Shown: one piece after another, positions 351 to 48,109 of the stretch
Layout: every line of letters starts with the position of its first letter
Position numbering within the stretch: position 1 is the first letter of the stretch
Assembly: GCF_018320785.1 (NCBI RefSeq)
Contig: NC_054873.1
Span: 28,486,196-28,550,195 of the forward strand
DNA length: 64,000 bases
Source: Cheilinus undulatus
Lineage: Eukaryota; Chordata; Actinopteri; Labriformes; Labridae
Reading direction: 5' to 3'
Translations under genes and position numbers: made by a program
Notes under the pieces: model-generated
Seen by the model: only the letters and a program-made list of their open reading frames with translations
Databases searched by the model: none
Told to the model about the DNA's origin: nothing

Positions 351-363
351 TTTACACATATGT

Positions 364-1077: not shown

Positions 1078-1195
1078 ACGGTTTGGTTGAAAGTGAAATG
1101 TGAAAGCAAGCCAAACCACAGCAAAGTACAACAATGTTGCAATCAAAGCCCTGACCTGAACCGAGACACCGGGGAAATCCGGTGTGAAACCGACT
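1078..1195. repeat. MITE-like repeat, right part
   Basis: Carries GTGAAATGTGAAAGCAAGCC and ends near GGTGTGAAACCGAC, resembling the repeat at 160-350. The association is inferred from similar wording only. Confidence 0.3.
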
Positions 1196-1319
1196 TTATA
1201 TTCCCAATTTTACACATTGTAACTTTAAAAGCAACATACCCACAGATTGTGTCTTGTTGTTGATATTTAGTCTTGATTTGTTTGAGTCCTCTAAGTTATG
1301 TTTAAAAGTTATGAACAGA

Positions 1320-1530
1320 ATAATAATAATAATAAAAGCTTGGACTTAGATAGCGCCTTTCATGAGACCCAAGAGAGGAGTGGAAAATAAGGCACAACAC
1401 AAAAGACAAACACTAGGTTCAGTGTATGTAGGGGGAGGTTTAGAAGACACTGTAAGCTGAAGTTAACAGGTGGTGCTCAAGGAGTTTTTTTAAATGTGTC
1501 CAAGGATGGAGCATTGCGGATGTTATCAGG
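1320..1530. repeat. Fish interspersed repeat (LINE 3'-like)
   Basis: An (AAT)n run is followed by GCTTGGACTTAGATAGCGCC and CAAGGATGGAGCATTGCGGA, wording found in dispersed non-LTR-type repeats of teleosts. It is degenerate, and the class is from memory. Confidence 0.35.
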
Positions 1531-3202
1531 AAAGCATTTACATTTAATACCATTTAAGATCAGTCATATGGAATAAATCTGTATGTGCAGTCTTTTTTAC
1601 CACATGTCTGTGGTATAAAATTTCTGCTGAGTCAGTGATATAGACCTGGAGTTCAAGAGGAGTCCACCCGTTTACCCCTGTATGAAAAAAAATTCACATC
1701 AAGCGTCCTACAGTGACATATCTCAAGGTGTGTATGTGCTTGTGTGTGTGAAGTGTTTATTTGTTGGCAGCAGAGTGATGGCCACTATCTGTACTTTTCA
1801 TCAGAAGTCAGTGGAGTGTGTTATACCATCCTTCTCTCTCTCTCCCTCTCCCTCGCTCTCTCTCTCTGGAGGATGGATTTATATCAAATCATAATAGATG
1901 GCAACGCTTTTTGAACAATGAATCAAAGCTGAAGCAGGTCTCACAGTGTAGCAGAGACATATCACATTTGACAGGGGCCGCATCAGATGACAACAGGTCA
2001 CCTGCACACTTACAAACGCACACACATACATAAACAAGCTTATACACACAAGGATGGATAACTGCATTTCTCTTGGAGAGTCAGCTCTCTCTTACCATGC
2101 AGTAGCTACACATACACATCATATTCACCTGTACAGGTCGTTTATGTAAGAAGGCTGAATTTGCTGTTTGCAGTAAGGCTTTCACTACCATGACTTGGAA
2201 AGTGCTTTGCTTTCTGTGTGGTTATGCATCCACAAATGTGTCAACACGCAAACACACACAGTAACATATCTTGCTGAGCTGTAAAGCCTCACTCACACTG
2301 GTCATGACTAATCAAACACCTACCTCTCCATGAGGGCATTCCTGCTTCTCTCTCAGCCTGTTTTACTCTCGCTCTTCCTCTCAGAGTGTGATTCCTGTAC
2401 TCTTCTATAAAAAGTTGTAAAAAGGAAATTGTAAATATTTGTAAAACTTACAGTTTCTCAAGCCAGGATGTCTTTACATGAACGGGAGAATAGACAAGAG
2501 GAATTTCACTTCTTTTCCCCACCAAGGCAGACCCCCTTTTACTTGACTATGCAATTAGAAATGCAGTTCAACCATACTGACTTTATGCAGCCAGCAATTA
2601 AATTTTCAAATATCAAAAATCCACTAATAATAAAGCAACCTGTCATGTTATGTTTATCCAGTGTTTAGAGAAAAAGTCACTCCAAAAAGTTCACTTATTC
2701 CTTTATTAACTTTTATGGGTGGAGGGTTTCTGATGTTCTTTTATCATATTTAGACAGTGTAAACAGCAGAGGTTACAGGAGGTGAATGGAACAAGGTGAG
2801 GCCTGGTTTAAACCCCTAGAATTAAATACTGCCCACTTTTACTGTCTTTAGTTCAAATTTTTAAACATGAAGTAACCAAATAATAGCTCTGAGTTTGTGA
2901 TGCCATCTCTAGTCGCTGATGGGGGGCATACAGATGCATGATTCAGTACGCTCATCTCAGCGTCAGGAGTCAGGATTAGAGATACATTTGTTAATCATTT
3001 AATACTTCTGCTCCCCCCTTTCTTTCCTTGATTGTGTGTTTCATGTCTGTGCTTGTCGTGCTGTATCTCCATCTTGACCTTGACTCAAAGGTGTGCAGTG
3101 ATGAGCTGTCACACTGTTTGAAGAGCTCGTACAGTAATCGCTTCTTCTTGTTGTCTGAATTTGACTGAATTATTCAAGGCATGCACTTTGACAGAGTAGA
3201 GG

Positions 3203-3210
3203 TATTTATA
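3203..3210 (+). promoter_or_regulatory. Possible TATA box of an internal shank3 promoter
   Basis: TATTTATA is followed about 25-30 bases later by CCTCCGACACT, a plausible initiator region, and then by an AG-rich leader running to the ATG at 3620. It is supported only by its position ahead of the candidate first exon. Confidence 0.3.
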
Positions 3211-3527
3211 GCAGCTGGTCTCTGCCTCCGACACTATCACGGTAACAACAAGCTCTCTGAAGGCTCTTCAACAAACTAAACTATTCTGACGGAGAGGAGG
3301 AGGAGAAAGAAACACTGCAGAGAACCAGAAATGGGAAATAAAAGCTTGAGGCTCAAACAGAATGAGATGCACAGTTGTCAATGCTTCTAAGCCAAGAAGT
3401 CCTATTTTTCTCACAAAACAAGGAAGACTTGGACTTTTGTTGATTTTTTTGCTTTTTGGGAATTTAAACTGCGGGAAATGAAAGGAGCTCTTCAAACCAT
3501 CCGGAGGTAAAGTAAGGAGGAAAAGAC

Positions 3528-3602
3528 ATGGCTCTTTTTGGCAATTCATCGATGGGACAGAGGGAAGACCCACTTGATGAAGACTTAAGACGAATATTGT
3601 GA
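3528..3602 (+). other. Short upstream ORF in the candidate shank3 leader
   Basis: This 24-codon ORF (MALFGNSSMG..., stop TGA at 3600-3602) ends 17 bases before the candidate shank3 ATG at 3620. If the leader is transcribed it could act as an upstream ORF that dampens translation. Its reality depends on the promoter being real. Confidence 0.25.
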
Positions 3603-3619
3603 AGGTAGTGCTCAATAAA

Positions 3620-3737
3620 ATGGACTGTTGTCCAGTCATGGTGTCAGATCTGCCTGTGATGTGTAGCAGGATAGATGGGGTGGTTACGGTGGTGAAGGCA
3701 GAGCAACCAAACTCCACATGTCATCGACTGTACTGGG
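3620..3737 (+). CDS. shank3: Candidate alternative first coding exon of shank3
   Basis: An ATG at 3620 sits in a strong Kozak context (A at -3, G at +4) and opens 39 codons starting MDCCPVMVSDLP. The ORF runs to a donor GGGTAAGC. The leftover base (G at 3737) is exactly the phase needed by the exon at 16909, making Glu and continuing TREDRTKRLFRHY. A TATTTATA box lies at 3203-3210, with a purine-rich leader between it and the ATG. The product would be a SHANK3 without ankyrin repeats or SH3 that keeps PDZ, proline-rich region and SAM. I do not recognise the 39 residues from any database entry I recall, so this is an inference from phase, splice site and start context. Confidence 0.45.
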
Positions 3738-4732
3738 GTAAGCTATCAGCTCTCTGCACTGTGCTCTCATGTCAGCACACCGACTGCTTCTGAAGCAAAC
3801 ATATGGCTCATACTACATGACAGGTTAAAATGGTTTCTTTTTGAAGAAACTATAAATAGCTCCTCTCTGTAAATATGAGAAGCATAATATGACTCAGCGT
3901 TAGAGGAGGTAGAGTAAAGATGGAGGAGGGAGCAGGTGTGTGTATACAAACTTTTCCATTTTTAGAATAGATGAGTGAGCACTACTACAAATAACTGACT
4001 GATTCAGTGCAACATGATATTTTTAGTATTAAATTAGTAGTTATGATATTATTAGTTTTAAACTGGATTATATAATTTGCCAGAGTATTTCATGTTCTTG
4101 TTATCTTTGGCCTCCTCTCCATTTAGCCCCTTTTCTGGCCCATAAAGGGAAAGCTTTTTTGTTTTATTGATGAAGATTTTTCTGTTTGTAATGGAGTGGT
4201 GGTGACATTGTATGACTCCATGACATAATACTGTTTAAAAGTGACTGTTTGGCTGGTAGAATCTCTTTAAAGCATCCACATTTGATAGCTTTCATGAACT
4301 CTCTGTTCAAGTGTTTGACCCACTAGATCTCACCTCATTGCACAATGTCATTGTCTGAGTCAGAACTTCTGATCAAGGTTTGCACTTTAACATTGATCCC
4401 TGAAATATCCACCCTCCTTTACCCATGCTTAATTGCTCTTGTGCGCTACTACACAGATAGAAAGTAAGTCTAAGTATATCACAGTCTCTGTGTGCATAAG
4501 CCTCATTAATGAAAAACTTAAATCAGCTTGTACATAAAGCCAAACATATCAGTTTATGTTTACATCACGTAAGTGAATACTGCTGTCCTCCAAAACCAGA
4601 ATCTGATATTAAGGTTTTCCCATCCTTCAAATGTGGAAAGTCAACAAACATTTCTTCCTTCCACAAATTTCTTTGTGTGCCACAGCTGTAATATGAAACA
4701 GTGAGAAACTATAAACAATGAGGATGATTAAA

Positions 4733-4733
4733 A

Positions 4734-4771
<38 letters not shown>
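4733..4771. repeat. (TA)n(GA)n microsatellite
   Basis: About eight TA units run directly into about twelve GA units. Confidence 0.9.
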
Positions 4772-4988
4772 TCTTTATTTAATCTAAATGTAGTATATTG
4801 TCTTGGTTTTCATTGATACAAGAAAATCCTATCTACCATGGCAGCAGGTGACCTGATGTTTTAACCTACCCAAGCAAATATTAACCTTTTTTTGACAGGG
4901 TGTATATTCTAGTTGCATATCCATCGTTGACTAGAATAGTGTGACATAAAAATCCTGTTTCATCTAAATACAGGCTTTTAACGCATTT

Positions 4989-5711
4989 ACAGTCATGGAC
5001 AAGAAAATACAGAAAATACACTGTTTCTCCCAGAAATTGTTGCAATTACAAATGTTTCTGGTATACACATGTTTATTTCCTTTATGTGCATTGGAACAAC
5101 ACAAAAAAGCAGAAAAAAAAGTCAAAATTGACATAATTTTATGCTGGACAGAATTGTTGGCACCCTCAACTTAATATTTGGTTGCACACCCTTGGGAAAA
5201 AATAACTGAAACCAATGGCTTCCTATAACCATCAGCAAGCGTCTTACACCTCTCAACTGGAATTTTGGACCACTCTTCTTTTGCAAACTTTTCGAGGTCT
5301 CTCAGATTTGAAGGGTGCCTTCTTGCAACAGCAGTTTTGAGTTCGCTCCATAGGTGTTCAATGGGATTTAGATCCGGACTTATTGCTGGCCACTTCAGAA
5401 CTCTTAAGCGCTTTGTCTCCAGCCATTTTTTGGTGCTTTTTGAGGTATGCTTGGGGTCATTGTCCTGTTGGAATACCCATGACCTCTGACGCAGACCCAG
5501 CTTTCTGACACTAGGCCCTACATTGCGGCCGAAAAGCTTTTGACAGCCTCAAGATTTCATGATTTTTTTCTGCTTTTTTTTGTGTTGTTCCAATGCACAT
5601 GAATGAAATAAACATTAAAAACAAAAACATTTGTATTGCAACAATTTCTGGGAGAAATGGTGCATTTTCTGGAAAAACTCCAGGGGAGCCAATACATTTG
5701 TCCATGACTGT
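4989..5711 (-). mobile_element. Internally deleted Tc1-like transposon with long inverted repeats
   Basis: The ends ACAGTCATGGACAA (4989-5002) and TTGTCCATGACTGT (5698-5711) are inverted, and homology continues inward for over 100 bases (CAGAAATTGTTGCAA versus TTGCAACAATTTCTG; AACAACACAAAAAA versus TTTTTTTGTGTTGTTCC). Only the 3' part of the transposase remains between them. The left end abuts TA; the right TA is not preserved. Confidence 0.85.
5171..5500 (-). pseudogene. Tc1-type transposase remnant (C-terminal part)
   Basis: On the minus strand reads QQDNDPKHTSKSTKKW, WPAISPDLNPIEHLWSELK and FAKEEWSKIPVERC, ending ATKY and stop (TAA at 5173-5171). It holds the second Asp and the final Glu of the DDE triad. 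The N-terminal DNA-binding half is deleted, so it cannot transpose itself. Confidence 0.85.
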
Positions 5712-7259
5712 GCAGAGACTCCACAGTGCTTTGTATTTTAATTCACATCAATTATAAACAGCAGAGCTGTAGATGAATATTATGACTGATGAATAGAAAA
5801 CGTTTTAGAATAGGACAAATTATTTGGGTCTAAATGTACCTGCTCCTTTATCTCACTCATGCAGAAGAATGGTTAAAGGCTTCTGATTTAGTCATAGACT
5901 ACATGTTTATACAAATAAAAATCTGATAACAGGGGGTTAGCTGAGATACATGCTAATGCCAGGTGTACACAGACATACTAAAAGCTATTCACTGTTCACT
6001 CAGGGTTCCTGTTCATGCAGGGTCACAGCACAGATAACTTTCAATCAGACAATTGCTGTAAAGTTTCATGGAAGTGCAGTTTGTTGCCTTTTAATCTTTT
6101 TATACCGTCTCACTGTGGCTGCTGCCTGTTGTTCCGTAACCCTCTCTAACACTTAATCTGCTAAAGTCAAGAAATTTCAACAATTATCTTTTGGGTTTTG
6201 TTTGAACATGCATAATTCAGGAGATCATATTGAGTGCAAACCACTTCCTTTTGCTATGTTAAAATGAAATTCACTGATATAAATCATTCAGTCCAAAGCA
6301 GCATCACTGGACATTTGCAAAGGCCTTGATGTTGCTATTGAAAAGATGAAGCTCATCATATGTTTTTTTTTGTCAAGTTAAAAGTGACTCTACCTGTTAA
6401 GAATACTCTTACTAATAATACAGTTATCGTTTTAAGCAGCTCATAGTAGGCATTTTGAAACAGTCATCCAGGGTAGGTGATCTCATGAATTCAGTAGTAC
6501 ACAACAGAGGGCATGCATGTACATAACATTCTTAATAGGTAGGAGTCACTGCAGTTTCAGCCACTAAATGGTAGAAAGGGGCTTTAATTCAGCTGAATTG
6601 TTTTGACTTTTCAGTAATTATTTGCAGATAATGCTAAACAGGTAAAATAAATTCTCAGTTGTTATATATCTGTTAAAACGTATGCATCCTTAATGTTATG
6701 TTGATACAGCCACAGGACAAAACAATGGAGATGCAGTTGCTAGCACACACTGAAAGCATCATATAGCCTAAGTGCATTAAGTTAGCAATTACTTTAATAA
6801 AAAGTCTCCTCCATTCTCCCTACTTTTGTTGGTTCCTGTTTGCATCAAGGAAATCAAGACCTTAAACTGTAGCATATGAATCATAATGTAAAGGTATGAT
6901 GATATATTATGTATTTTGTCATGCGAACATCCAAAAGAAAGTAAAGTCTGATCAACATGTCTGGTTTACAGTGAAATATTTAAAAAACAATGTTTAGTCC
7001 ATAGATAATTATTACAGTTTAAATAAAAACATAGATTAACTTGACTTCCATTTTGCCAAATGCTGATATAATTTCCAAATATTTTTCATGATGTGAAAGT
7101 ATGAGACCTAATGGCAGTTTCTGTTTACCAAAATCATATTAAAGTTTTAGAGTTACACTCTCAAACTCTTGTGTTTAGATTTGAACTTGCTGCCACTAAA
7201 TGAAACCTTGGGTACATGAACTCTGCAAACTCCTATGGTGGAATTTGCCAATTAAACAG

Positions 7260-16000: not shown

Positions 16001-16908
16001 TCATAATAGATTTTGGTTGTTGTGTAATAACTTTGTTTGTTTCCAAAGTGAAATAATGTAAGCATCCAAAACAAAACGAGGATGATTGGAAAAGTTGTGT
16101 TAAAAATTCCTTGCTCTGTTTAACAGCACTTGAAAAATACTTTAATGTTACTTATCATTGTTGATGCTAATAATAAAATGAGCAAAATCCAATATTAACT
16201 ACTTGTTTATTGAGGCTTGTATCTGCTAATTGTATCACTTTTTGCAGTATTTATATATTAACATACTAAAGATTAAAAATGGAAATGGCTTTGATACGTT
16301 TGAATCACTGTGGAGGTGTAGACTCATAGTTCTGAATCTAATACAGCAAATAAACTGTGTCCTTCCAGAGTCATTTTTAGCAGTGCATTTCAGTAAAGTT
16401 CCTAGACACAGCTCATTTACTCTATTCTTTGCAGAAGGCTGCTAGAATTCTGCACAAGCGAGTGTGGATGACCTTGCGTCTAAGAAACTCTCCTGCACTC
16501 GAAAAATAAGCCTTGGATTATGTGTGGGCAGAAGCAGGAGTGGCTCTCACGTGAAATCTGAAAAGCTATTTTTGTTAGAAGTGATTGTGATACTTCTTCT
16601 TATGATATCACTTTGTTTCAGATAAACCAGAACTAATGCTTATATTTTTGTTGTTCATTTATCATGTCCTCTCTGCTCTGACATAAAAAAAGGTTTGCTT
16701 GACAACTAAATAAAAATGACAGAAATTTCCAAAAGAGTGGTTGACTTAAAAACCAAAAGCTTAAAATTAATCCATTCTTTTTGCCTTTTAAGATTTCTCT
16801 CCCTTTGTATCCATTCAAAACTATAACAGTTGATTATGTATACAAACCTTGGAGCCTTTGGTCATCTAATGTTCTGCTTACATAAAAAACATGTGTTGTG
16901 TTTTACAG

Positions 16909-16984
16909 AGACTCGAGAGGACCGCACCAAGAGATTGTTCAGACACTACACTGTGGGATCCTATGACAACTTCACCTCATACAG
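16909..16984 (+). CDS. shank3: shank3 exon: SH3-PDZ linker
   Basis: The acceptor TTTTACAG precedes the exon and the donor GTACAG follows it. It reads (E)TREDRTKRLFRHYTVGSYD..., the conserved linker between SH3 and PDZ in SHANK proteins. It starts and ends in split codons (starts with the last two bases of Glu, ends with the first two of Ser). This is the first certain shank3 exon in the window. Confidence 0.93.
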
Positions 16985-19900: not shown

Positions 19901-22900
19901 TCTTCTCTGTCTCTCTTTCTCTGTTTGTCTCTCACAAAACACAAGAAAAGCCCCTGGAAATCCTGAGCTGTGGTTTCTTGCTTGGCTTTGAACTTGATTT
20001 GTTAATAGGGCAGGATTATCATAGCCTACAGGTTTGTGTGCCAGAGTGTGCGCCTCCTTCTTCGCCTTACCCTCCTCTGACCCTCAGGCTCGACCCTCTC
20101 TCCTTTCCAGAGGATGGTGTTGGGTTCATACCTGCTCTTCCTCTGCTCTCTCTCTGACAGTGACTATATCATAGAGGAGAAGAATGCAGTTTTACAGAAG
20201 AAGGAAAGCGAGGGGTTTGGCTTTGTCCTGCGTGGAGCCAAAGGTGAGAAACAAACACGCTACCATTCACAGTCACTACCTACGTTTTTTCATCGTGTGA
20301 GAATTTTGATGTGAGAAGCGGTTTGTTGATCTGAGTCAGAGTACGTCTCAGTCTGTATTGTTACTGTGTGAGTCAACAACTCGACCAGCTTTGGTCAACA
20401 TTCAGCTTGTATGCTCAGATGCACTCAGGCTCCTGTGCCTGTGTCTGTGCATGTAAGTGTGTGCGTGTGAACGCACGCAGCCCCTTTGGTGGCGTCATCC
20501 TTGGCTGAGCTGTCGGCTAGCTGTCCCATCTGTTCTCCACACATGGCGTTCAGCTTCAGTCGAGACACACTACTCTCTCCCCTCCTCTCGTATTTCTCTC
20601 ATCTTTTCTCTACCTCGCCTTTTTTGGGGTTTTTTTCTTTCCTCTCTGCACCTCCTCCACCTCCCTCACATCCTCCACCTCCATTAATCCCTCCCCATAT
20701 TTATACCCAATCACTTTTATACCTTCATATTTCCAACAAAAATCGCCTCCCTCCTCAACTCCATCACCACAAATTCATTTTACTCCTGCACGTGCCAGCT
20801 CCCTGCTCAGGCTGGTTACCATGGTTACCCTTCTCAGGCACCTTGCCGGGAGTCTGAATGTGCTTTACTGCCTCATCACTCACTACCATGGATCTTGGCT
20901 CAGCCCGCTCCCTTTTACTCACTCTGTCTTTTACTCCCCAGTACCTTTACACACACACACACACACACACACTCCTGCAGACTCGCACATTGCAGCACAC
21001 TTACTGGTCTGCTGAGATATCTCATGTGTCAGTGATTTAGTTGGATTTGAGCCAAGATTAAATGGAGTTTGTGGTCCTGCACTCACTTAGCAAAGTGTGC
21101 CTGCTTAATTTGTGTGTGTTTGTTATGTAGAAGCATGCATGTATTTAACCTATTAAAACATGAATGACCACATATGTATTTTATGATAAAGTCTGAACAC
21201 TATGAGACAAATTTGCAATGAGCAATAGTGTTTTCCAATTTTAGATACCAATATGAAGTTTGATAATGTATGCCATATTACATAATACTCAAGAGTGAAT
21301 TTTTGCAGTAACCCACAGGTTTTTTTAATATGGCTATCCTCCTTTCTTCTTGGTTTACCCTATACTTATGTGCAACATGTCTCTCCTGATTCTCAAGTAT
21401 AACCCCTACTTCTAAATGGAAATGTGACATAAGCTGCAGTGACATGAGCATTTTTTTACAATTCAATTTAATTTATTCTGATTGGAGATGCATTATACAC
21501 CTGATCCGTGTAAATCTGCTCTCAGTATCATCCCAAAAATTTTTGCTATAGAAGAAGAAATTCTTCTTTCACGGCGCCTTTGTGGTCAACAAACTGCCAT
21601 TGCTATACACCTTCAACTCCTTTTAGTTCCTTTTTCTTTTCATCTCGAAGGACTCAACGGCCATTATTATTGAAAGCAATTGCAAAGTGGACTTTTTAGA
21701 CCCCTGCACACTTTTCCATGTTAGGCGGGTCTCTCCTTAGTGAGTTCAGGTCCAGAGAAGTCAGCGGCACTTTTGGATGTTGTTGATGATGGAAGTGGCA
21801 CTCACTTTGCAGTCTCAACTTAGATGGTGCAACAAACTGTGTTAACTGGCAAAAGTTTCTGAGGTTTTCACAAGCCAATATTTTAATATTCATTACAGAA
21901 AGATACTAGATGTTAATGCAGTGCCTCCTAAGGGGTTGAAGGTCACAGGCGCTCATTATTTGTTTTCAAACTTGCCTGTTACATACAGAGATTTCCCCAG
22001 ATTCTTTGAATCTTTTGATGTTATTACAGACTGTACATGGTAAACTTTCTAAATTCTTTGCAGTTGCACGGTAAGAAATGTTTTCCATAAACTGTTGGAC
22101 TATTTCTTTCAGTATGGTGAAAACCTCGTGCCTTGCAGGAGTGCTCCTTTCTACCCAATCTTGTGTTATTACCACTTAACCTACTTACCTGTGGAATGTC
22201 ACAGGTGTTTTTTAGGCATTCTAAAACTTCCCAGTCTTTTGAATATATGTTAAAAAATATTTGCAAACCACTTTAAGTTTTTTTCACATTTAACATAATG
22301 CCCTATTTTTTAATAATTTACCACTTAATGACACTTATTAATCAAAAGTTTGCCGTTAGCTAGCTTGAGCTTCACCTGACTACATTAAAATAATGTGAAA
22401 GCATGGTCATTATACTCAGCTACCCTTCATTCAACCAGTCAATATTTCTGACTTTTGTAACGTGTTTTTGCAGATGTGGTGAACTGCACAGCTCTATTGA
22501 AAAAAGTATAGTTTTGGCACTGACCTCCATCCATCCATCCATTTTCTATACCATATCCCAGCTGTCATTGGGTGAGAGGTGGGGTACACCCTAGACTGGT
22601 TTCCAGTCAATCACAGGGCTGAAATATAGAGACAGACAACCATGCACACTTGCACTCACACCTACGGTCAATTTAGAGTCATCAGTATCCTAATGAGCAT
22701 GGTTTTTGTGGTGGGAGGAAGACAGAGTGCCCACACATGCACGGAGAACATGCAAACTCCACACAGAAAGGCCCTGACTGGGAAGCAAACCAGGGACTTT
22801 CTTGATGTGGGGCAACAGTGCTAACCCTTGCGCCACCATGCAGCCCTTGGAACTGACCTACTTAAATAAATAAACTTCATAAATTTAACTCATTTCTAAA

Positions 22901-25900
22901 TTAAATAATTTGTAAATGTTAAGATTTAATTCTAAGAAAAAAACTGGCATTGCCTCTCAGGGAATGAAATAGATCATATGTAAACCATTAGCCAACAATT
23001 TCCACCCATTCAACACAAAATGTCCTGATTTTTTTTTGTTTCTGATGTCAAGCTAAAATAGGATAAAGTGTAAAAAGGAAAGCATTTAAAGTTTAACTTG
23101 ATTGTTCTGTTGTCTCTGTTTTTCTTTTCAGCTGAGACGCCCATCGAAGAGTTCACCCCCACCCCAGCATTCCCCGCCCTGCAATACCTGGAGTCTGTGG
23201 ATGTGGAAGGAGTGGCCTGGAGGGCTGGTCTGAGGACAGGAGACTTTCTCATTGAGGTGATTAAAGGACAGCACTCAGCTGCTTGTGTCATCAGTACCTC
23301 ATAAGACAGCAGTGATGGCTACAAACTTATAAGCAGGGAATAAAAGTTCTAGCTGCTGGATTTTGCACTGTTCTTTGCTGCAGTAGTGGATATGATATAT
23401 ATTCACAGCTCTTCCTGTACTGGTGAAAACAAACTTGTTTATATTTGTTGCTAAGGTTGTCTGTTCTTGTCAATCAATTAGATACAGCTCATGTCAATCC
23501 TAATGAAAATATATGCGTCCGATAACAGATGTTTATTGCTGAATAATTCCAGGGACGTCAGCAGTAAACATTGAACAACTTTCAGCCAAGACTTCCTTTT
23601 CTTCACTTCATTTACTCTCCAATGTAAATGCCACCATTTCTTGGTCCATAACATCCCTGAACAGCAGTCCCTAATCTGGTTTTCTTGAGTCTCAGTTCAG
23701 GAGCAAAATACGGGTTACACATTGGCTTTACACTGGCTCACTTCAGTGATATGAGCCTGTAAAAGAAACCAGATTTCTTGTTGTTTACCTGAATTTGATG
23801 GAAATTAAGGTGGCGAAATAATAATATTTTCATGCAAATTTGCTAAATATAAACATGCAGGCTTTGTGAGGTCTGTCATCAAGAAAGAAACAAAGCAACT
23901 CTTGAAATGTTTGTTGAACAGAAGTAAGAATTATCACTTCTGATGTGTTTAGGGAATTTATTGAAACTAAACCCTAATTAAGCAGATCTGTGGCTCAAGT
24001 TGAAATGTTTGATTATATTGAATGGATTGTAAGCTTCAATTTTATCCCATCAGTCCCTCGATGATAACCTATATACATAATCGATCAGTTTTTGTTTGTT
24101 TTACTATCAATTCATTACCAAAATAATCTCACACTTCTTAAAGAGGGCAGGTCTAGACCGTACTCTTCGCTGTGTCATTATAAAGTCACCATCAGCTTAG
24201 CACTAGCAGTATTTAGCCTCATTAGGGTATCGAGGAAAACCTCCCCTTTAACGGGCAGGAACCTCAAGCAGAGCCAGACTCATGTTGACATCCATTTGCT
24301 GAAGCCGTGCTGGGGTTGGAAAGGGGTGGGACATAACATTTATACCCCCATGCTTTTCTCTGTCACTTCCTTTCATATATTTTTATCTATTCTATTTGTT
24401 ATTTTAACAGGCTTTATTAGCATGTAAATCCGTTTACATTGCCCAAGCAGTAAAGCAGTGTACAAATTTATAACAAAAATGATAACGGGAAAAAACATTA
24501 AAATTGTATCAAAAATCTAGGTTTAACATAAAAATGATGGTTTTCTGTCTGTGTCTGCTTTCTCTTAGGTTAATGGCGTGAATGTAGTGAAGGTGGGCCA
24601 TAAGCAGGTGGTGTCCTTGATTAGACAAGGAGGTAACAGGCTGCTGATGAAGGTGGTGTCCGTGTCACGGAAACCTGAGACGGAGGAAGTCGTTCGCAAG
24701 AAAGGTAAAGTTTCTCTCTCCCTTCTTTTTATACTAAATAGTTAAAACATACTGCCAATTGAAATCACCTCAAGTGCCGATTTTAGTGTGGGCCATTTCT
24801 GAGTACAGACTGAACTATTTAACTTAGACATTAATGGCTAAATAAACCATACAGTTTTTTTTACATAACACATAACTCATTTCTAAGACAAATCTATAAT
24901 GAACTGTATACAGCACTGCAGTGCAGACAAGGGAGGGGTTTGCAAAAATATGTGTTTCTGTTGTCTAGGCGATTTCTACCACGTTTTCCCTGCTGTAAAT
25001 TTGTGTAGTTTCCATGTCAACCACAGCTCACCATTACTCAGCTCCCACACAGTCCTGGCACCATGACCTCAGGACCGTGTACACTTCACTTGTGTGTTTC
25101 TATGTGTGTTTGGTGGAGTGGTGTGCACCTCCCCAGTGATTATTGAGATACAAGGACAGTGATAAATGGCTTTGACCCATTTTCATTGAGACAGCCCTCT
25201 GTTGACTAAATCCTGATACTCAGGGCCTTATGGTCTCTTACTCTCTCTCCCCTGTTGTCGTAGAGCACTTTTTCTAATTTCTCACCTTTAACTTTGAGTC
25301 TCAAAACATTTACATTTATTTATATAAATTTTGATTTGAATGTGATAGTGCCTTTTTCTTTTAGTCCTGCATTCTGTATGTTTTAAATTTGGTCTATAAT
25401 AACTTTAATCTCTAGTTACTTGATTCTATAAATTGTGACTACTGTACTCTATACTCTATTCTACATGCCACATTCAAGTTGTCAGGTTAAGTATAATTGA
25501 AGTCCCTGTAAACTAAAATCCAAAATCTGTGTGTTGGAATAAGGTTGCTGTAAATATGTTAAAAGACTGGGATCTATGTGTGACTGAATTTTGGATTTAG
25601 ATCATTAGAAAGTTTTTCACCTCTTCCCTGGCTTGGTTTTATTTGGGCAGGGCAAATATAGCACCCTATGGAGAATGACCCCTTCCCCCTAACACTACAA
25701 CAATATAAAATCGCAGCAATAAAAGAGATATTAGATCACATTTTAATACAGCCTGTTGTTAGCTGATGTCACTACCTTTATTGAAAGTTAACAGCAAGCT
25801 ACATGCTGTGTTTTTATTCATTTTGAGATAAATGTCCCAAATCTATCAGCCGCAGTGGCTTACATCAGAAGTATCACAACAGAGAGATTTGTGCCAGAAA

Positions 25901-27398: not shown

Positions 27399-30300
27399 CC
27401 TTGTCCTCCTCCATCTCCTCTGTTACTGTACAAGAATTTGCAGGCTGGTGAGAAAATGAAGATGTTTGATATGGACTGTACCCAAAGCCGCGTGTGAACA
27501 CTGATCTGAAGCCGCTGGTGACAGCAGGATGGTTAGGCTCTAGTAAGGCACAGAGACATGTGCGGGATTTAGAGATCTATCGCTTTAGTGTGGTGCATTG
27601 ACAGATAGTCTGTCTCAGACAGAGCGATTTGATGGAGTTATTTTTGTGGGGTTGGTTTTTAACAAGAGGGTTGGAATGCTGTTGGTGAAGATTTACGATC
27701 TGTGTTTGCAGTGCATGCCATTTCAGATCCTAAATTTTGTGATTTAAATACTTATTGATTCCTTATTAATTAATGCTTTTTGTTGAAGCTCTAATTTCTT
27801 AAATGTGTTTCATCTCTTTTTGTGGGTCGATAACAGTATGGTTTCCTCATGTAGATGGCAGTGTTGTGAGGATGGGTATAGAATTTGCAGTGCCTCTTTT
27901 TTAAGCTGTTAAATTTACTGTTGAATCTCTTCATCTGTTAGAACTGGTGTCATTATGTCCATACATGCATATGGATATGCTTGAATGTAAGCTGGTCTGT
28001 CTGGGTTTTCTGTCTGTCTACTGCATTCCTTGTAAATTCCATAAAGACGGCATATTAAAAGTAAGATGGACGACTTTCTCCCTCTCCTCTTACCCTTCTT
28101 TGTACTCATTCTGCCTGTTTTGGCTTCTAAAATCTGTTCGGTGTGTAACGGGAGGATTCAGAAATCCAGGGATGCAACAAAAAGGACTGCACTGTTCATT
28201 TTCTGCCTGTGGGCTCCTCAACCAAGAGGAATTCTGTCAACACAAAGATTAAAAAACTGAGAGTCTTGAAGACAGATCTCCAAGTGCTTGATAAGCAGTT
28301 GGTCTGACAGAGATCAAAACATGAAGAAGTTGGGCTCCAACCGCAGCCTGAATAGGGTCCTGAGTAAATGTGAGAAGTCCAGTCCGCATGAACTCAACCA
28401 GATCAAAGCAGCCAAGACAGGATGGGCTGGTCGGCTGAGTGATGCCAAGAGGGCTTTAAGCCGCAAAGACAAAGGATCTTCATCACCCACAGTAATATCC
28501 TCCTCAACACCGTGCCTTGTCTTCACAGCTCCCCCACCACCCAAGAGGGCTCCAAGTACTACCCTGACACTGCGCTCTAAGTCCATGACCGCTGAGCTGG
28601 AAGAACTGGGTGAGTGCCAGAGAACTGGCGATCTGATGACTCTAAACTCTCTTCCCCCTTTTCTCACATTTCTGACTTCCCTTTATCTTTGAAACTTGGT
28701 GTGTCTCTGACTTTTAGAGTAGTCACTTCTGTTGGCTTTTTCTTGTCATTTTCCCTCCACTGCTGACTCAATCTTTTTCCCACCAAGCTTCTGCTCGGAG
28801 GAGAAGAGGAGGTGAGTCTGAGGCAAGAGCTTGACACCTCTTTAAACATCATAAAGATGATTTATCACTGCTCTGCCAATTTAAGCAGTTGATTTAGAGC
28901 ACTTGAAAAACATGCATGTCTCTCTTTGTCCACTTTTTTTTCTTTTTCTCTCTGTCTCTGTCACCTCTTAGTGCTCACTACCTAGTGGTTCATCAAGGAA
29001 ACACAGTGAAACTGTATTAAGATAGTGCAGTGATTTTGCACAGTACCATAGAGCATGACTTCACATTGTAGTGTATAGCACCATATTAGATACGCCTTTT
29101 TAATCACGTTTTGTATTCTCTATCGTGTTAGCATTGTCAGAAATTGTGACACAAATCCCTGGTATAATACCTTTGCATTTAGTGCTTCCTCTTTTCTCTC
29201 CCAACAGAGAGGCTTGATGAGATGTTGGCATCCCAAGAGTCTATGTTGCGTTCTCAGCCCTTGGAGGCAGATTACAGAGCAGCCACTGTCAAACAAAGAC
29301 CTACCAGCAGGAGAATAACACCAGCAGAGATCAGCGTAAGTGCACCTACAAAAAAAATGCAGGCATCAAACACTGCTACACTGGCATACTGTCAAAGTCT
29401 TTCAGAGACTCAAAAGCATCTGAGCAACAGTGCACAACCCAGTACTCTATATACCAGAGCAGTGTTACTTGGTCATCAACTTTTGTAACAGATTTTTTCT
29501 GTTACAAAAGTGTAGCTCAATACATACAATATCAAATTGTATAGATTTGAAAGACATTGCAATAACATTTTTTTCCTTTTTTGCTGCAGTCACTGTTTGA
29601 GAGACAAGGGATGACTCTACATGGAGCTCTTCACCCAGGCATTGAGAGAGGTCACATACCAGTACCAAAGGGGATGTCTAGGACCAAGTCTTTTGGTAAA
29701 ACAATCACCCATCCTGTAAATATTCAAATCAGGTGAATGATAGTGTATCTTATACACAGTATGCTTAAAGGTAGTACATTGGCATGTAAAGGATGTGTTA
29801 AAAGGAAGCTTCATTCTTTTTTCTTTAATTTAAATGGCATCATCCATGAAGAACAACATCTCGTGAGCAGTATGCATGTAAATAACACTGAAGTCAAGAA
29901 AAACGTTTAAATATGTTTACAATAAACGATTTGCAAAGCAGATGTTCAAGTCCAATGTCTGTTTGAAAAGTAGATGCACACATATGCTATTCATGCTCCC
30001 GTATAATTAAATTATCAAATGAAAGATTCACAGGGAAATAAGTGAATAAAAGTTACATCTATGTTTTCCTAGATTACAGTGTATCTAGGTTTGAGACACC
30101 TGATTGTGTATTGACAGAGTAAGTTAATAGAGTCACAGTCTGTTGTACATGAAGCAGCTGTAGGCGGTTGTTCTACCTGAGTTTTGCTCCTGTCACCAAA
30201 TTACCTGTGCTCTCCTCTCCCTCACCAGGCGCCACTGAGGAGGACCGGTTATCTGCCCTTGCAGCCGAGCACAGGTTCCCCCGCAGTTCCTCCATGACGG

Positions 30301-33300
30301 ACAGCTTCAGAGACCACTCACAGCCCCATCCCATTCCTCCACCTCCACAAATGGCACCTCCACCTCCTCCATATTACCTAGACACCGGTCCTCCACCAGC
30401 CTTCTGCCCCCCTCCTCCCCCATCCAGGACTCAGAGTCAGGGCCATGAGCCTGGGGGACGCTCCAGCTTCAAGCCCTCGTCCTTGGACCTGCCTTATGAA
30501 GCTGCTCAGCGGCAGGCCACACACATCGAGAGACAGAAGAAGGCTCGCTCTATGATCATCCTCCAGGACTCTTCGCATTTACCTGTAGAACCTACAGAAA
30601 TTCCGCGTCCTTCTGTAGCTACTCCACCTGAACGAGTCAAAAGGAAGGGTCGGGTTATTGACAACCCTTATGCTAACGTGGGTCAATTTAGCATTGGACT
30701 TTACACTCCCACCAAGCCCCAGAGGAAGAAAAGTCCCCTGGTGAAACAACTACAGGTAGGATTTCATAACTAATGCATCTTTAATTCCTTCTTTTAATTT
30801 AATGTCAGAGACTTGTCTGACATGATTGGTTTATGTTTGTTTGTGTGTTACTGCAGGTGGAAGATGCACAAGAAAAAGCTAGTTTGGCTTTAGCCGCTGT
30901 CCACTCAAGAGAGAGCTCACCCTCAGGACGACACTCACATGTTCATGGACACTCCCACACTAGCCGTGCAGACTACTATCAGCAGCAGCTGATGGCTGAG
31001 CGAGAGCGTCTGCATGCCCAGGGCGAGATGGTGTTTCAGGGTAAGGGCCCCTTTGCTGCTGCTATTGCTGGAGCGGTGAAAGACCGTGAGCGTCGCCTAG
31101 AGGAGCGGAGGAAATCCACTGTCTTCCTTTCTGTTGGGACCATGGAGGGGGCATCCACAACCAGCTCGGATTCCCCCTCTTTAACTCAGTCTCACTCCAT
31201 CGATGAACGGATGCTCACTCGAGAGCTTGGACAGCTGCCTCCCCCTGCCTTGGCCCTGAGCCCCTCACCCAGTGGGACCACCTTTATTCATCCACTTACA
31301 GGAAAGCCCCTGGACCCTAATTCTCCTCTGGCTCTTGCGCTGGCCGCAAGGGAGAGGGCCCTGACTTCCCAGAGCCAGTCACCCACTGGCAGCCCAGAGC
31401 CCAGGACTAAACAGGAGCGGGTAAGCCAGAGTGTTATGTTCATTGAGCCTCAGACCAAAGAGTCTTCACGTGGGGAGGGGGCACCCCCATCTCCCCCTTT
31501 TTCCCCTAAAACCGCCAAGGCAGTGGGGTTTGGAGTTGGACCAACCCCAGCATCAATCCTTGTTCCCCAGCCCACCAAACCACAGTGGGCCTCATCACCA
31601 TCCTCTGTATCATTCCGACAGGAGATGGAAGCGCGGGTAGAGGAGAGGAAGGAGGAGAAGAGACTAGAAGATAAAAAGAGTATGTTGATCAGTATTATGG
31701 ACACGTCGCAGCAGAAGACAGCAGGGCTGATCATGGTCCATGCTACCAGTAACGGCCAAGCTGTCGGAGTTGGTTCAGAGGTAGAAAAGACGCCTGCCCC
31801 AACATCCACAGAGCCAAGCAAATCTCCAAGTCCACGGGCTAAATCCCCAAGTCCAGCAGCCTCCCAGGCTCAGCTCCAGACCCATCCTCAAACACAGCGT
31901 CCTACCAGTCCAGCCCAAGAGAAGAGTCTGGCTCAGGGAAGCTCAGAGGAGGACGTGGACCCATACACAGTGACCTTGCCTCCTGCCATGTTGTCCTCCA
32001 GTGATGAGGAAACAAGAGAGGAGCTGCGTAAGATAGGAGTTGTCCCTCCTCCTGATGAGTTTGCTAACGGGCTGCTGGCACAGGCACAGGGAACACCAGT
32101 GTCCCCACCTAAACCTGCCTCCACTCCCACCACCCCTACAACACCGACACCCCAGACTCCCTCAACCCCATCTACTCCAACCGTGACCCCAACGCAGCCT
32201 CAGCCTCCCCAGCCTCCACCTCCACCCAGTGCAGCAGCTGTCTCAGGGAAGCCCACTGACCCTCTGGAGCCCCCACAGGTGGGTGATTCTTGCTCTGCAG
32301 CTGACTCGGGCGTGGAGGAGGCTGACACACGCAGCTCCAGTGAGAGAGAGCGAGACCACCACCTCGAGACCACCAGCACCGTCTCCACAGTTTCCAGCAT
32401 GTCCACATTGTCCTCAGAAAGCGGCGAGCCTGCCGACACACACACCACGCACACCTCTTACGCCGACGGGCAGACTTTTGTGCTCGACAAGCCGCCAGTG
32501 CCTCCTAAGCCTCGACTCAAGTCCCAGATAGGAGGCGGTAAAGGCCCCGTCACCTTCAGGGACCCTCTGCTAAAGCAGAGCTCTGACAGTGAGCTTCTAT
32601 CACAGCAACAAGCTGCTGCTCTGGCTGCAGCAGCCGGAGGAGCTGGGCTGCCCTCAGGTGGTTCAGCATCAGTGACTGGACTAGCCCCCACCAAGCCACG
32701 CTACCTCTTCCAGCGGAGGTCCAAGCTGTGGGGGGACCCAGTGGAGCCTCGTGGGCCAGGGGTGGGGCTAGGCATAGGGAGTTTGGGCAATCTTGGTGGA
32801 CTGGGACTGGGGCTGGGTGCAGACGAGGGAGCAAAACCATCAGTTATGGGGGAGCTCAGTTCTCGACTACAGCAGCTAAATAAAGACACTAGGTCACTGG
32901 GAGAAGAACCACTGGGAGCATCACTAGATCCTGGGAGGAAGTCTCCGGTGGCAGGTGCCAGGTAAGCAAGAGCCAGTGCAAAAACATTTAGATTAATGAT
33001 TTTAAGACACATTCATTTATTTTGGCTGCATGGTGGCAGAGACGTCAGAGTTAGAAAGAGAAGAGTTATACTTAAGATAAATTGCACAAGTATAAGGCAA
33101 TGAGTTCAGTTTGCCTCTAGTTTATCAGCATCTGAGCTAAATCTTTATTACATCCATTTTCATGTCTATGGTAGCAATTCTCCCAAAGTTAGATTAGATT
33201 TACAAGCCCATTGAAGGAATTTGGCAAACACTATGGCTTGTATTCAAAAGTAATCTAAATGCTGTCTTTAAACTGTTTAATTAGCAGCTTTTGACTGTTC

Positions 33301-36300: not shown

Positions 36301-39300
36301 TGTTTGATAACAAAGCTAATTCTTTGTAATTATAATTGTGGCCCTCCTCATGGGAGTGATGGTTTGTGTTGACAGAAGTCTGCTGCCACTCCTTGTTGTT
36401 GCTTCTGGACATCTTGGATGCAGGATTTTCCTCCAGTACCTCCATAAATGTAGTGCTTTAAAAATGAAACAATTCTGTAAGCATAGTTTTTTCTTTATTG
36501 TAACAGCCTCATGCACATATTTTCAGCTCTTGTTACCAGTATTGTACCATATTTAAAAAGCATTGTCTGTTACCAAAATAATATAGGGTGAAAAGCACAT
36601 TCATCCTCATTATTTGGGACTTTGCCTTCCCTGTGTGATCATAAAAGAAAAAGCAAAGTCCTCATGTGGCGTTGAGCCGAATTCAGCTTTGTCCCAATCC
36701 ATTGTTGATCTGCAACATCATTAACAGCAAGATCTGAGGATGGAAAAGGTGACCATGATATCAAGTATGACATATCATGTAACACCCACTTCTGATTGGA
36801 CTCATCCTCTTTTGAGAGTATGCAATCAAAGTCTTCCTCACCACATCCATCCTGACAGTTGATTGCCCTCGGCTGTGACAAAGATGATCATGCACACCAT
36901 TATTTCTCTCTCTCTCTCTCTTTACTGCATTTGTTCCTCCTCACCCGCTGCATAGGCACCCCATCACCCTTAATTAGTTACTCCATCACTTACCCCATCC
37001 ACTGCGTGCCCCATTTAAATCCAAATATGCTGCTGTATTCTGCCTCTCTTGTACCCACCATGTTCACATGCTGTGTATTATAGCTTTGGGGTGATGTAGA
37101 CACTTGTGGTTCTCATTTTTGTGCCCTTTTATTTTCTGTTCTTCTCTGTTTATGTAATTTGCAAAGTTTTGTTTTGTTTTCAGTGATTGTGTTGAGGATG
37201 GCCATGATCCCTGACTGTTTATGCTTATTGGACACTGTAGGTTCCCAAAACATTATCAAAGCAAAAAATTGAGCAAATTGGTTTCATTATCAGAAATTCA
37301 AACACAGTTTAACCTTGAATGCAGAGCAGTACATACAAGTGTAAGATAATATCTGTTACTAGTGAAATAATGTAAAAATGTGTTTGCAAACAGCAACATA
37401 GTGATTTTATTTCACTGTGAACAACAACAAAAGCAATCAAAAGTCAAGGGACATGCTTCTGCCTTGAGTTTGTTTGTTTGTTTTTCTTTGTGCAGTGTTT
37501 GATATGTGAATAGTGTGTTCATTTCTCTCATGTAGCTCACTGGTCAGACCTTCAGCGCTGAAGCCTACTGTGCTGTCTGTTATGTAAGAGACATATACCA
37601 AAATCCTCACATGCACATACAGAAATGTAAACTAAAATCCTTCATATTCATAGTCACACACACTTACACAAATGCACTTACCCCACACACAATCACAGTG
37701 TTCACATACAAAAAGCAGAGACAGCAGAGTTGGCTAATGCTGACTCTTAAGGCTGGTCGGCAGGCTGCGTCTCATGGAGTGATGCTAACATTCTCTCCCA
37801 TTGCTCTCTCTCTGCTCACCTTGCATGCTCCGCCCTGCTGCTCTGATCTGATTGGTCTAGAACTGACTGTGCGCCCAGGAGGGCAGGACGACTGTGTAAG
37901 TGCGCATGGAGCTCATCTCATATCCGTCGGCTCCCTGTAGTCTGATCATTACTCCAGCCTGTGCGCTGCCAAGCTCCATTTTAGTCCAATTCTTACCTCT
38001 ATCTGACTTTGAAACACATGCAGAAGAGAACGAACATGAGACACACGCTAACATGCATGAGTAAATCAGACACCATTGCACAAACTCTTTCCCCATGTAG
38101 ACCTCTCCTCTCTACCTCATCAAGCCTGCACCAAGCTAGTGCGAGCCTCAGTCCTTAATCCATCCCTCTTTTCTTTCCTGGCCATCCTTACCTCCATTAG
38201 ATCTATAGATTACTGATCAGACACTTTTAACTTCTCACAAATATGTTTCATATTATTTATTCAGAGGTTCAGATGTGAATGTTAGATAAACCAGCACTTA
38301 AGAGACAGGAGTGAATGTTTCAGGATCTGAATTACTCATGTTTGGGCTAGTACTCTTTATACTGCTGATGTTTAGATTTGTTTGGTTGGTTAATGTGATT
38401 GGCTTTAAGATAGAAATTATGCAATTGCTGAAATAATTGAAGTGTTTGCTTTGCTTCCAAGCTAAAAAATAAAAAAAAAGAATAATTTTATCAGCAGGCC
38501 AAGTGTACTCTGTGTAATTACATGACCTTACATTGTAAAGTATATATAGCAGCTGAAAAATTCACCTCTTAATACATTTCTATGAAAAACCCATGTCTTA
38601 AGTAATGGGTGATACAAACTTAAAACCAAACATTAACCGTACTCATTTTAGCACTCTAAATGTTGGTTTGTGTGTATGCGAGTGAAAGTCTCTTATGTGG
38701 GGAGTGGGTGGATGCTCAGACTGTATCTGGTCAGTTTTTCTAATTCTACTGTTTCAATGTAAAACATTTAATGCTAAACCCTTTGCTTTTTACAGGTCAT
38801 TTCAGGGAGATTGTATTGTATGCATTTGCTGGAAGTAGCTTTTTGTTGAATTCATTAGAGTGAAAGACTTTTAATGGCCACACTGACCCAGTGTAGGAGG
38901 GGTTTTAGGGAAAACAATTCCATCTTATTATCAAATAAGGAGAAGAAAATACTTTAGCTTTGATGTAACTCTTGAAACATGATGCAAGTCTGGTTTCTTG
39001 AGAGAAAAACCAACAAGTGCAGCTTGCTGTTTTGCAGTTGCTGTGATGTGAGATTAGTCTGTTATTAACCTGTAGCCTTGACTAACTTAAAGTTAAGCAG
39101 AACCTTCAGTGTTGAATACATGTTGTCATTCCTCTCCACTGATAACCCTCTCTTTCTCTGTCTGTCTCCTTAAGACTTTTCAGCAGCCTAGGAGAGCTCC
39201 ACACCATTTCTCAGAGAAGTTATGGCACCACGTTCACCATCCGCCCTGGTAGCCGTTACCCAGTCACCCGACGCGCCCCCAGCCCAGGTTCAGGCTCACC

Positions 39301-39745
39301 TGACCGGGGCGATCCTCTTGGACGTTTCTCAGGCTTCGGCCTACCAACCTCACCAACTACACCCCCACAAACCATCCTCAAATCCTCCAGCCTCAGCCTC
39401 CCCCAGGAGCCTAAAGAAGTCCGCTTTGTGATGAGGAGCTCCAGCGCCCGTTCCCGCTCTCGCTCCCCATCCCCATCACCTTCCCATTCGCCTGGGCTGG
39501 GCTCACCACTTTTAGCCCTCCGACCCTTCCACCAGAAACCTCTCCACCTCTGGAATAAGTACGATGTAGGAGACTGGCTGGAGAGCATCAATTTAGGAGA
39601 GCACAGAGCAGGGTTTCAGGACCATGAGATCGAGGGCTCTCACCTCCCAGCTCTCACTAAGGATGACTTTGCAGAGCTGGGAGTGACACGCGTTGGACAC
39701 CGTATGAACATTGAACGAGCACTGAAAATGCTGCTAGAGAGCTGA
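16909..39745 (+). CDS. shank3: SHANK3 postsynaptic scaffold, C-terminal two thirds (11 exons)
   Basis: Scaffold of excitatory postsynaptic densities. Its PDZ binds GKAP/SAPAP, its proline-rich region binds Homer and cortactin, and its SAM domain self-assembles into sheets (family knowledge). Exons: 16909-16984, 20161-20243, 23132-23256, 24569-24704, 28529-28609, 28788-28811, 29208-29335, 29590-29695, 30229-30755, 30857-32961, 39175-39745. They join in phase to 3,962 nt: 1,319 full residues, beginning inside a Glu codon whose first base lies in an upstream exon. In order: linker 1-25, PDZ about 26-125 with GFGF at 43-46, proline-rich region about 140-1250, SAM 1255-1319. The ankyrin and SH3 exons lie upstream of the window. 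The PDZ segment, KQRPTSRRITPAEIS, the RSIDER-type and KKSM motifs and the SAM domain match SHANK3 better than SHANK1 or SHANK2. Teleosts often have two co-orthologs (shank3a/shank3b), and I cannot tell which this is. Confidence 0.95.
16985..20160 (+). other. shank3 intron with a TA-flanked MITE
   Basis: Contains the MITE at 17295-17838. The remaining sequence, including a CT-rich stretch just before the acceptor, shows no exon. Short ORFs here lack coding character. Confidence 0.7.
17295..17838. mobile_element. 544-bp MITE with Tc1/mariner-type ends
   Basis: The ends CAGTGCTTAACAAATTTATT and AATAAATTTGTTAAGCACTG are exact inverted repeats (at least 25 bases) and are flanked by TA on both sides (17293-17294, 17839-17840). 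There is no ORF inside. The exact ends suggest it is younger than the other relics. Confidence 0.88.
20161..20243 (+). CDS. shank3: shank3 exon: PDZ part 1
   Basis: The acceptor CTCTGACAG and donor GGTGAGAA flank 83 nt coding DYIIEEKNAVLQKK and the carboxylate-binding loop GFGF, ending GAK. This is the first PDZ strand plus the ligand-binding loop. Confidence 0.95.
20950..20971. repeat. (CA)n microsatellite
   Basis: About eleven uninterrupted AC units. Confidence 0.9.
21690..22200 (-). pseudogene. Decayed Tc1-like transposase N-terminal fragment
   Basis: On the minus strand ENISYRATAKNLESLPCTV and NIKRFKESGEISVCNRQ match the helix-turn-helix of Tc1-like transposases (SYRAIAKNL, IIKRFRESG). 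Further homology continues in broken frames with CCTTAGGAGGCACTGCATTA. Stops and frameshifts are present. Confidence 0.7.
22527..22845 (-). repeat. Teleost L2/SINE-type repeat with (ATCC)n tail
   Basis: CCATCCATCCATTTTCTATA at the plus-strand left is the tail in reverse. The element reads rightwards to leftwards with GTGTGGAGTTTGCATGTTCT and GGTGGCGCAAGGGTTAGCAC (minus strand), a very common dispersed fish repeat. Confidence 0.75.
23132..23256 (+). CDS. shank3: shank3 exon: PDZ part 2
   Basis: The acceptor TTTTCAG precedes 125 nt coding ETPIEEFTPTPAFPALQYLE and GLRTGDFLIE. This includes the long beta2-beta3 insertion typical of SHANK PDZ domains. The donor is GTGATT. Confidence 0.95.
23257..24568 (+). 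other. shank3 intron
   Basis: Holds an interspersed repeat at about 24100-24420 and otherwise plain AT-rich DNA. Confidence 0.7.
24100..24420. repeat. Dispersed fish repeat with CCTCCCCTTTAACGGGCAGG
   Basis: AGGAAAACCTCCCCTTTAAC, AGGAACCTCAAGCAGAGCC and CCATTTGCTGAAGCCGTGC resemble a high-copy teleost repeat. The class is not assigned. Confidence 0.45.
24569..24704 (+). CDS. shank3: shank3 exon: PDZ part 3
   Basis: The acceptor CTCTTAG and donor GGTAAAG flank VNGVNVVKVGHKQVVSLIRQ and the last PDZ strand MKVVSVSRKP. The exon ends in KK, one base into the Ala codon completed at 28529. Confidence 0.95.
24705..28320 (+). other. shank3 intron, CT microsatellite and possible internal promoter region
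   Basis: Contains a long CT microsatellite at 27311-27398. The last few hundred bases before 28321 would be leader and promoter if the internal start is real. No TATA box or clear GC box was seen. Confidence 0.5.
27311..27398. repeat. (CT)n microsatellite, about 88 bp
   Basis: Nearly pure CT with a few interruptions. The Arg-Glu/Ser-Leu ORFs across it are artefacts of the repeat. Confidence 0.95.
28321..28528 (+). CDS. shank3: Candidate second internal start: first exon reading through into shank3
   Basis: An ATG at 28321 (A at -3) opens 69 codons that run in frame, with no stop, straight through the acceptor at 28527-28528 into the APPPPKRAP exon. The extra peptide begins MKKLGSNRSLNRVLSK, is rich in Lys/Arg/Ser and has an ordinary coding third-position pattern. 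It ends CLVFT before APPPP. The product would lack ankyrin, SH3 and PDZ and keep the proline-rich region and SAM. Mammalian SHANK3 is known to make short transcripts from promoters inside the gene. No database match is claimed. Confidence 0.5.
28529..28609 (+). CDS. shank3: shank3 exon: APPPPKRAP segment
   Basis: The acceptor TTGTCTTCACAG and donor GGTGAGTG flank APPPPKRAPSTTLTLRSKSM and TAELEEL, nearly identical to mammalian SHANK3. It links the PDZ to the proline-rich region. Confidence 0.95.
28788..28811 (+). CDS. shank3: shank3 24-nt microexon
   Basis: The acceptor CACCAAG and donor GGTGAGTC bound 24 nt coding SARRRRG, flanked by split Ala and Glu codons. It corresponds to the ASIRRRKG stretch of the mammalian protein. 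Skipping it preserves frame, so it is a natural cassette exon that adds a basic patch. Confidence 0.85.
29208..29335 (+). CDS. shank3: shank3 exon: TVKQRPTSRRITP segment
   Basis: The acceptor CCCAACAG and donor CGTAAGT flank ERLDEMLASQ... through RAATVKQRPTSRRITPAEIS, a conserved SHANK3 block. Confidence 0.93.
29590..29695 (+). CDS. shank3: shank3 exon: SLFERQG segment
   Basis: The acceptor TTGCTGCAG and donor GGTAAAA bound 106 nt coding SLFERQGMTLHG... to SRTKSFG. SLFERQG and the RTKS serine context match SHANK3. Confidence 0.92.
30229..30755 (+). CDS. shank3: shank3 exon: first proline-rich block
   Basis: The acceptor CCTCACCAG and donor CAGGTAGG bound 175 whole codons plus a split one. 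It codes ATEEDRLSAL, FPRSSSM, several PPPPP tracts (SH3/EVH1-type ligands), ERQKKARSMIILQDS and KSPLVKQLQ, all SHANK3 landmarks. Confidence 0.94.
30857..32961 (+). CDS. shank3: shank3 large exon: proline-rich region with Homer and cortactin ligands
   Basis: A single 2,105-nt exon (701 codons plus two bases). It starts VEDAQEKASLAL after CTGCAG and ends GAR with donor GTAAGC. It includes FAAAIAGAVKDRERRLEERR, HPLTGKPLDPNSPLALALAA and KKSMLISIMDTSQQ. The Homer-binding PPDEF motif is at 32048-32062, and KPPVPPKPRLKS, the cortactin-type ligand, is near 32489-32521. SKLWGDPVE and SSRLQQLNKDTRSLGEEP follow. A Pro/Thr-rich stretch (about 32100-32240) and a Gly/Leu repeat (about 32755-32825) are longer than in the mammalian protein as I know it. 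Confidence 0.96.
34770..35040. repeat. Possible hAT-type MITE
   Basis: GGCCCTATTCACATGAAGAC, AAACCGGGTCCCAGAGTG and TGTGGACAGCCAACCGCATC match the wording of short repeats spread in fish genomes that I associate with hAT MITEs. The ends and target duplication were not located. Confidence 0.45.
37829..37855 (+). promoter_or_regulatory. Possible GC box and inverted CCAAT box
   Basis: TCCGCCC (37829-37835) and ATTGG (37851-37855) lie close together in a locally GC-richer stretch of the last intron, 1.3 kb before the SAM exon. Weak evidence of an internal promoter. Confidence 0.2.
39175..39745 (+). CDS. shank3: shank3 last exon: SAM domain and stop
   Basis: The acceptor CTCCTTAAG completes an Arg codon and reads LFSSLGELHTISQRS... 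The exon contains PKEVRFVMRS, an Arg/Ser/Pro block, and the SAM domain from LWNKYDVGDWLES to ERALKMLLES. The TGA stop is at 39743-39745. LGVTRVGHRMNIERAL is the conserved SAM helix 5 used for assembly. Confidence 0.96.

Positions 39746-46828: not shown

Positions 46829-48109
<1,281 letters not shown>

Follow-up and report, generated by a model that had tools for sequence, protein, structure and literature searches.

A candidate alternative first exon inside the SH3-PDZ intron of a shank3 gene in Cheilinus undulatus

The shank3 locus and its long intron

The window, as we call the whole stretch of DNA analyzed, comprises 64,000 nucleotides from the genome of Cheilinus undulatus. With a SHANK3 sequence as the tblastn probe, SHANK3-like exons for the SH3, PDZ, proline-rich and SAM segments were found in order in the C9 stretch examined, from the SH3 onward. 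Judged by these matches, the host gene is shank3. The preliminary description had named this gene and placed a hidden first exon in its pre-PDZ intron, and both the identity and the location are borne out by tblastn and by the SH3 exon found upstream.

Several exons can be placed on the plus strand of the window. A constitutive exon between SH3 and PDZ, ETREDRTKRLFRHYTVGSYDNFTSYR, occupies 16909..16984 (+) and is preceded by its acceptor (...tgttttacag) at 16895..16908 (+). The first PDZ exon, DYIIEEKNAVLQKKESEGFGFVLRGAK, lies at 20161..20243 (+), its start counted by eye, and the matched part of the second, AETPIEEFTPTPAFPALQYLES..., at 23131..23259 (+). The matched parts of the third PDZ exon (24590..24700, +), the proline-rich region exons (28528..32950, +) and the SAM-domain exon (39191..39733, +) were delimited by tblastn. 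The ATG at 20114, in frame with the PDZ exon that follows, was discarded as an artefact because its frame crosses the polypyrimidine tract of the acceptor.

The last SH3 exon ends at L009:1312 with a phase-1 donor; the host intron, from this exon to the one preceding the PDZ, is therefore 25,596 bp long. About two thirds of it, 16.9 kb, falls inside the window. The candidate lies ~12 kb inside the intron and 13 kb upstream of its proposed splice partner, the exon at 16909. In the C9 copy, the last SH3 exon is flanked by two huge introns, one of 25.6 kb (L009:1313 to window 16908) and one of ~22.8 kb (L012:8363 to L009:1198). Their counterparts in the second shank3 copy of this genome, C23, measure 137 bp and <100 bp, respectively.

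The window also holds features apart from the shank3 exons. At 5010-5711 there is a high-copy element of ~700 bp with inverted ends, of Tc1-type look by eye; 39 places on many chromosomes were scored over ~550 bp and are 87-90% identical. Downstream of shank3, open frames at 47577-48109 (-) carry GPKY/PGPG-like repeats and appear ODF3/CIMAP-like by eye; the frame at 47747-48106 (-) has no Pfam match at E 0.01. A further open frame at 49656-50063 (-), likewise without a Pfam match at E 0.01, looks by eye like a fragment of a Tc1-type transposase.

Start codon, open frame and donor of the candidate

A sequence check of 3203..3737 returned the letters of the candidate as previously described. Its ATG at 3620 stands in the context AATAAAATGG, where positions -3 and +4 are A and G, so that the strong start context claimed for it holds. 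From there an open frame of 39 codons, MDCCPVMVSDLPVMCSRIDGVVTVVKAEQPNSTCHRLYW, extends over 3620..3736 (+), with nested in-frame ATGs at 3638 and 3659. It is followed at 3737..3743 (+) by a spare base G (3737) and the candidate donor GTAAGC (3738), which together set phase 1. The fit to the exon at 16909 is exact, as had been proposed: with the spare G added, the junction reads E-TREDRTKRLFRHYTVGSYDNFTSY. Phase 1 is likewise the phase of the SH3 exon that normally lies upstream; that exon ends in ...CGGTTAG at L009:1312. An ATG, an open frame and a phase-compatible donor, the elements expected of an alternative coding first exon, are thus all present. In the protein, no Pfam match to the 39-residue peptide was found at E 0.01, and in the DNA, the window gave no Rfam match at gathering scores.

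Scored with a donor matrix, the candidate donor reaches 7.7 bits, a value attained by 14 of the 1025 GTs in 4-16900, and the donor at 3512, upstream of it, is slightly better (8.0 vs 7.7 bits). A short ORF from 3478 to a donor at 3507 was rejected since it ends in phase 2, and in the frame of that ORF a stop precedes the donor at 3512, as seen by eye and by scan.

Promoter signal

Could transcription begin just upstream of this frame? The preliminary description had relied on a TATA box at 3203. An element is indeed present at 3203..3210 (+), yet it is weaker than claimed: it reads TATTTATA on the plus strand, and on the minus strand it takes the canonical form TATAAATA. The chance expectation for either form is 0.049 occurrences per 500 bp. 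TATAWA is absent from the plus strand across 2601-3620, and no clear initiator was seen by eye at 3231-3239. Between the proposed element and the candidate start, the region 3331..3602 (+) contains eight ATGs (3331, 3362, 3367, 3381, 3478, 3528, 3552 and 3577), each stopped before 3620. Two of these, at 3331 and 3528, stand in strong context, with G at both -3 and +4, and eight ATGs within ~385 bp show no depletion. A start site nearer 3600 would avoid the upstream ATGs but would unlink the TATA box from the start.

Base composition at the candidate is raised locally. Its region has a CpG observed/expected ratio (o/e) of 0.37 and a GC content of 0.44, with flanks at 0.17 and 0.07 for CpG and at 0.38 and 0.34 for GC; the CpG and GC content of its 900 bp is only in the top ~8% of 494 host-intron windows. 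There is no CpG peak at the candidate, and two control starts of the same genome have o/e values of 0.70-0.71. The first control, the region of an upstream-open PDZ exon in a locus taken as shank2, has a GC content of 0.67 and a CpG o/e of 0.71. The second, the region upstream of the start-bearing exon in the second shank3 copy, has a CpG o/e of 0.70. Each of these two regions overlaps the highest CpG peak in the DNA fetched for its locus. The promoter part of the earlier interpretation is weak.

Coding signal

Using codon frequencies trained on 2,778 shank codons, the candidate frame scores -0.04 bits per codon. This is higher than 95% of 530 intronic open stretches and lower than all 131 exon windows, 98 from C9 and 33 from the paralogues, which overlap one another and were also part of the training set. 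A different frame of the same stretch outscores the candidate frame. Its coding potential is intermediate. Because an N-terminus of a special kind may have an odd composition, the low codon score weakens the claim and does not settle it.

Chance expectation

How readily would such an arrangement arise by chance? The strongest rival to an alternative first exon is coincidence: a search through 64 kb of DNA would have come upon an open frame within an intron whose start context is good and whose donor fits in phase, with no transcript beginning here. Across the whole host intron, we counted 16 phase-1 frames that run from an ATG to a donor scoring 7 bits or more. Of these, the candidate is the longest, which speaks against chance, as do the raised GC and CpG around it and the failure of a genome search to find a second copy of it. 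The candidate's own nested ATGs account for three of the 16, both strong-context bases occur in 6 of the 16 (the candidate included), and several others have stronger donors, up to 11.2 bits.

An equal hit was defined as a phase-1 frame of 39 codons or more that has a strong start context and a donor no worse than the candidate's. When window 1-16900 was resampled 200 times with an order-2 Markov model, 5% of the resamplings contained at least one such hit, with a mean of 0.055. Admitting any phase raised these figures to 8.5% and a mean of 0.09. The minus strands of 304 kb covering the five shank loci of this genome gave two equal hits, or 0.17 per 25.6-kb intron. The same scan of the plus strands gave five, including the candidate, so similar frames occur elsewhere. 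Two of the five, at C9 20114 and in the shank2 locus, continue into a PDZ exon, and another is a low-complexity frame of 40 codons far upstream of the second shank3 copy. The last, in the shank2 intron homologous to the host intron (G000:C1 composite 2832-3000; L029, -), is a strong-context phase-1 frame of 56 codons that ends at a good donor and bears no visible similarity to the candidate. The candidate exceeds chance somewhat, not decisively, and since the criteria were chosen after it had been seen, its true significance is lower than these figures suggest.

Paralogues in the same genome

Counted by places that match the second PDZ exon, the genome contains at least five shank loci. Within 50 kb at each of the four others, we found no convincing counterpart of the candidate, either as peptide or as DNA; the homologous intron was covered whole in C23, C20 and C21, and in C1 over its last 18 kb only. 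The best peptide match (E 0.05) lies on the minus strand with a stop inside, and the best DNA match among those listed has an E of 0.18. Long blastn matches of the host intron to other loci fall outside the candidate and were set aside by eye as repeats or as the shared exon itself. At 137 bp, the homologous intron of C23 is too short to hold the candidate exon. A first-pass search of the genome with the 641-bp DNA (3150-3790) and with the peptide found only the sequence itself, a result that does not show rarity.

One paralogue does show what an internal start may look like in this family. In the locus taken as shank2, the reading frame of the first PDZ exon stays open in the upstream direction and gives MNLHSGRASVAMLRMMGCANGRSARHLLHSDC (L026:6452-6578, -; G000:C1:11912452-11912578). 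By eye, this upstream extension resembles the start of rat CortBP1; a tblastn search of the five shank loci with the rat CortBP1 peptide gave no hit at E 0.3. The presence of a CortBP1-like extended PDZ exon makes an internal start of this kind likely in the shank family of this fish. The shank3 candidate is similar in that a CortBP1-type start of Shank2 also lies just before the PDZ and omits the ankyrin repeats and the SH3. It differs in that the shank2 start is contiguous with its PDZ exon and in or beside a strong CpG peak, whereas the shank3 candidate is 13 kb from its splice partner and has no such peak.

Internal starts known from other shank3 genes

The preliminary description had invoked internal promoters of SHANK genes, and the literature agrees: mouse Shank3 uses several intragenic promoters, and Shank3c and Shank3d are enriched in the cerebellum (PMC4113141; also PMC9773256, PMC6761322, PMC8594088). 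In a published primer pair for Shank3c, the reverse primer sits in the exon homologous to that at 16909 (LFRHYT), which implies a mouse start upstream of that exon (PMC6175061). Like Shank3c and Shank3d of mouse and human, which have an intragenic start, the fish candidate would produce a form without the N-terminal domains (PMC4113141). The published forward primers for mouse Shank3, however, match fish introns no better than shuffled primers do, a comparison of primers only rather than of first-exon sequences.

For fish, a zebrafish study describes six transcripts from shank3a and shank3b, each with some unique sequence, and reports PCR on cDNA as confirmation of the key sequences (PMC5099374). 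The pair of shank3 genes is a likeness to the present genome; in contrast to the candidate, the text consulted of that study gives no first-exon sequence in this intron, its structures and primers being in figures and supplements (PMC5099374). A reverse primer from the same study, initially taken as the end of the candidate, belongs by eye to the proline-rich region (GVLYMETQT vs VMFIEPQT). Among the matches listed, titles and openings of abstracts contain no report of the candidate exon.

A possible alternative start for a short Shank3

We assign a rough probability of 0.45 to the interpretation that this shank3 copy has an alternative first exon whose last base is 3737, served by an intragenic promoter. 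A promoter inside the 25.6-kb SH3-PDZ intron would drive the exon, and transcription would begin upstream of 3620. Splicing at the donor at 3738 would join it to the exon at 16909. Translation would begin at 3620, which yields a new start of 39 residues, or at one of the in-frame ATGs at 3638 and 3659. The product would keep the PDZ, proline-rich and SAM segments and would be devoid of SPN, ankyrin and SH3, in the manner of the short mammalian forms. If real, the candidate joins an already known class of intragenic Shank3 promoters.

The idea that an isoform starts here, as set out in the preliminary description, therefore survives in part. Gene, intron, phase, start context and donor hold, but the promoter part is weak, with a TATA element in its poorer orientation, eight upstream ATGs and no CpG peak. 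These same features, along with the low codon score and the hits in resampled and opposite-strand DNA, speak for a chance frame; on the other side, internal starts that lie upstream of this exon are used by the counterpart gene of the mouse (PMC4113141, PMC6175061). The odds between a genuine alternative first exon and a chance ORF are about even, and sequence alone cannot separate the start of a short form from a chance match. It is unlikely that the ORF and donor are incidental and that ~2900-3750 is instead a regulatory element (enhancer) of shank3, or a first exon of it that is non-coding or unspliced. GC and CpG above the flanks and the lack of a second copy of 3150-3790 in the genome search speak for this reading, as do the upstream ATGs and the low codon score, which are unfavorable to a translated leader; a rank of only ~8% from the top among 494 intron windows of 900 bp speaks against it.

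Why would an additional start in this gene be of interest? In autism and Phelan-McDermid syndrome, both the dosage of SHANK3 and the choice among its isoforms matter, and mutants of zebrafish serve as models. Were a fish shank3 to have a start downstream of its ankyrin and SH3 exons, mutations in the upstream exons would spare a short PDZ-SAM protein, and fish models would consequently have to be read differently. One of two duplicate genes would also have gained or kept an internal promoter.

The candidate peptide begins with MDCC, placing adjacent cysteines at positions 3 and 4. Of the 7533 open ATG starts in this DNA, 19 have cysteines at both positions; the motif was noticed post hoc. PSD-95 alpha is anchored through palmitoylation at Cys3 and Cys5 (PMC6365469). 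By analogy, the MDCC start might be lipid-anchored and give a membrane-tethered PDZ-Pro-SAM Shank3 free of ankyrin and SH3, special to the copy with the 25.6-kb intron; we consider this very improbable. Titles and abstract openings among the matches listed describe no palmitoylation of Shank3.

Farther upstream in the same gene, the highest CpG peak in the part of C9 that was examined lies at L012:7101-7700, ~0.5-1 kb before the first SH3 exon, and could mark another internal shank3 start.
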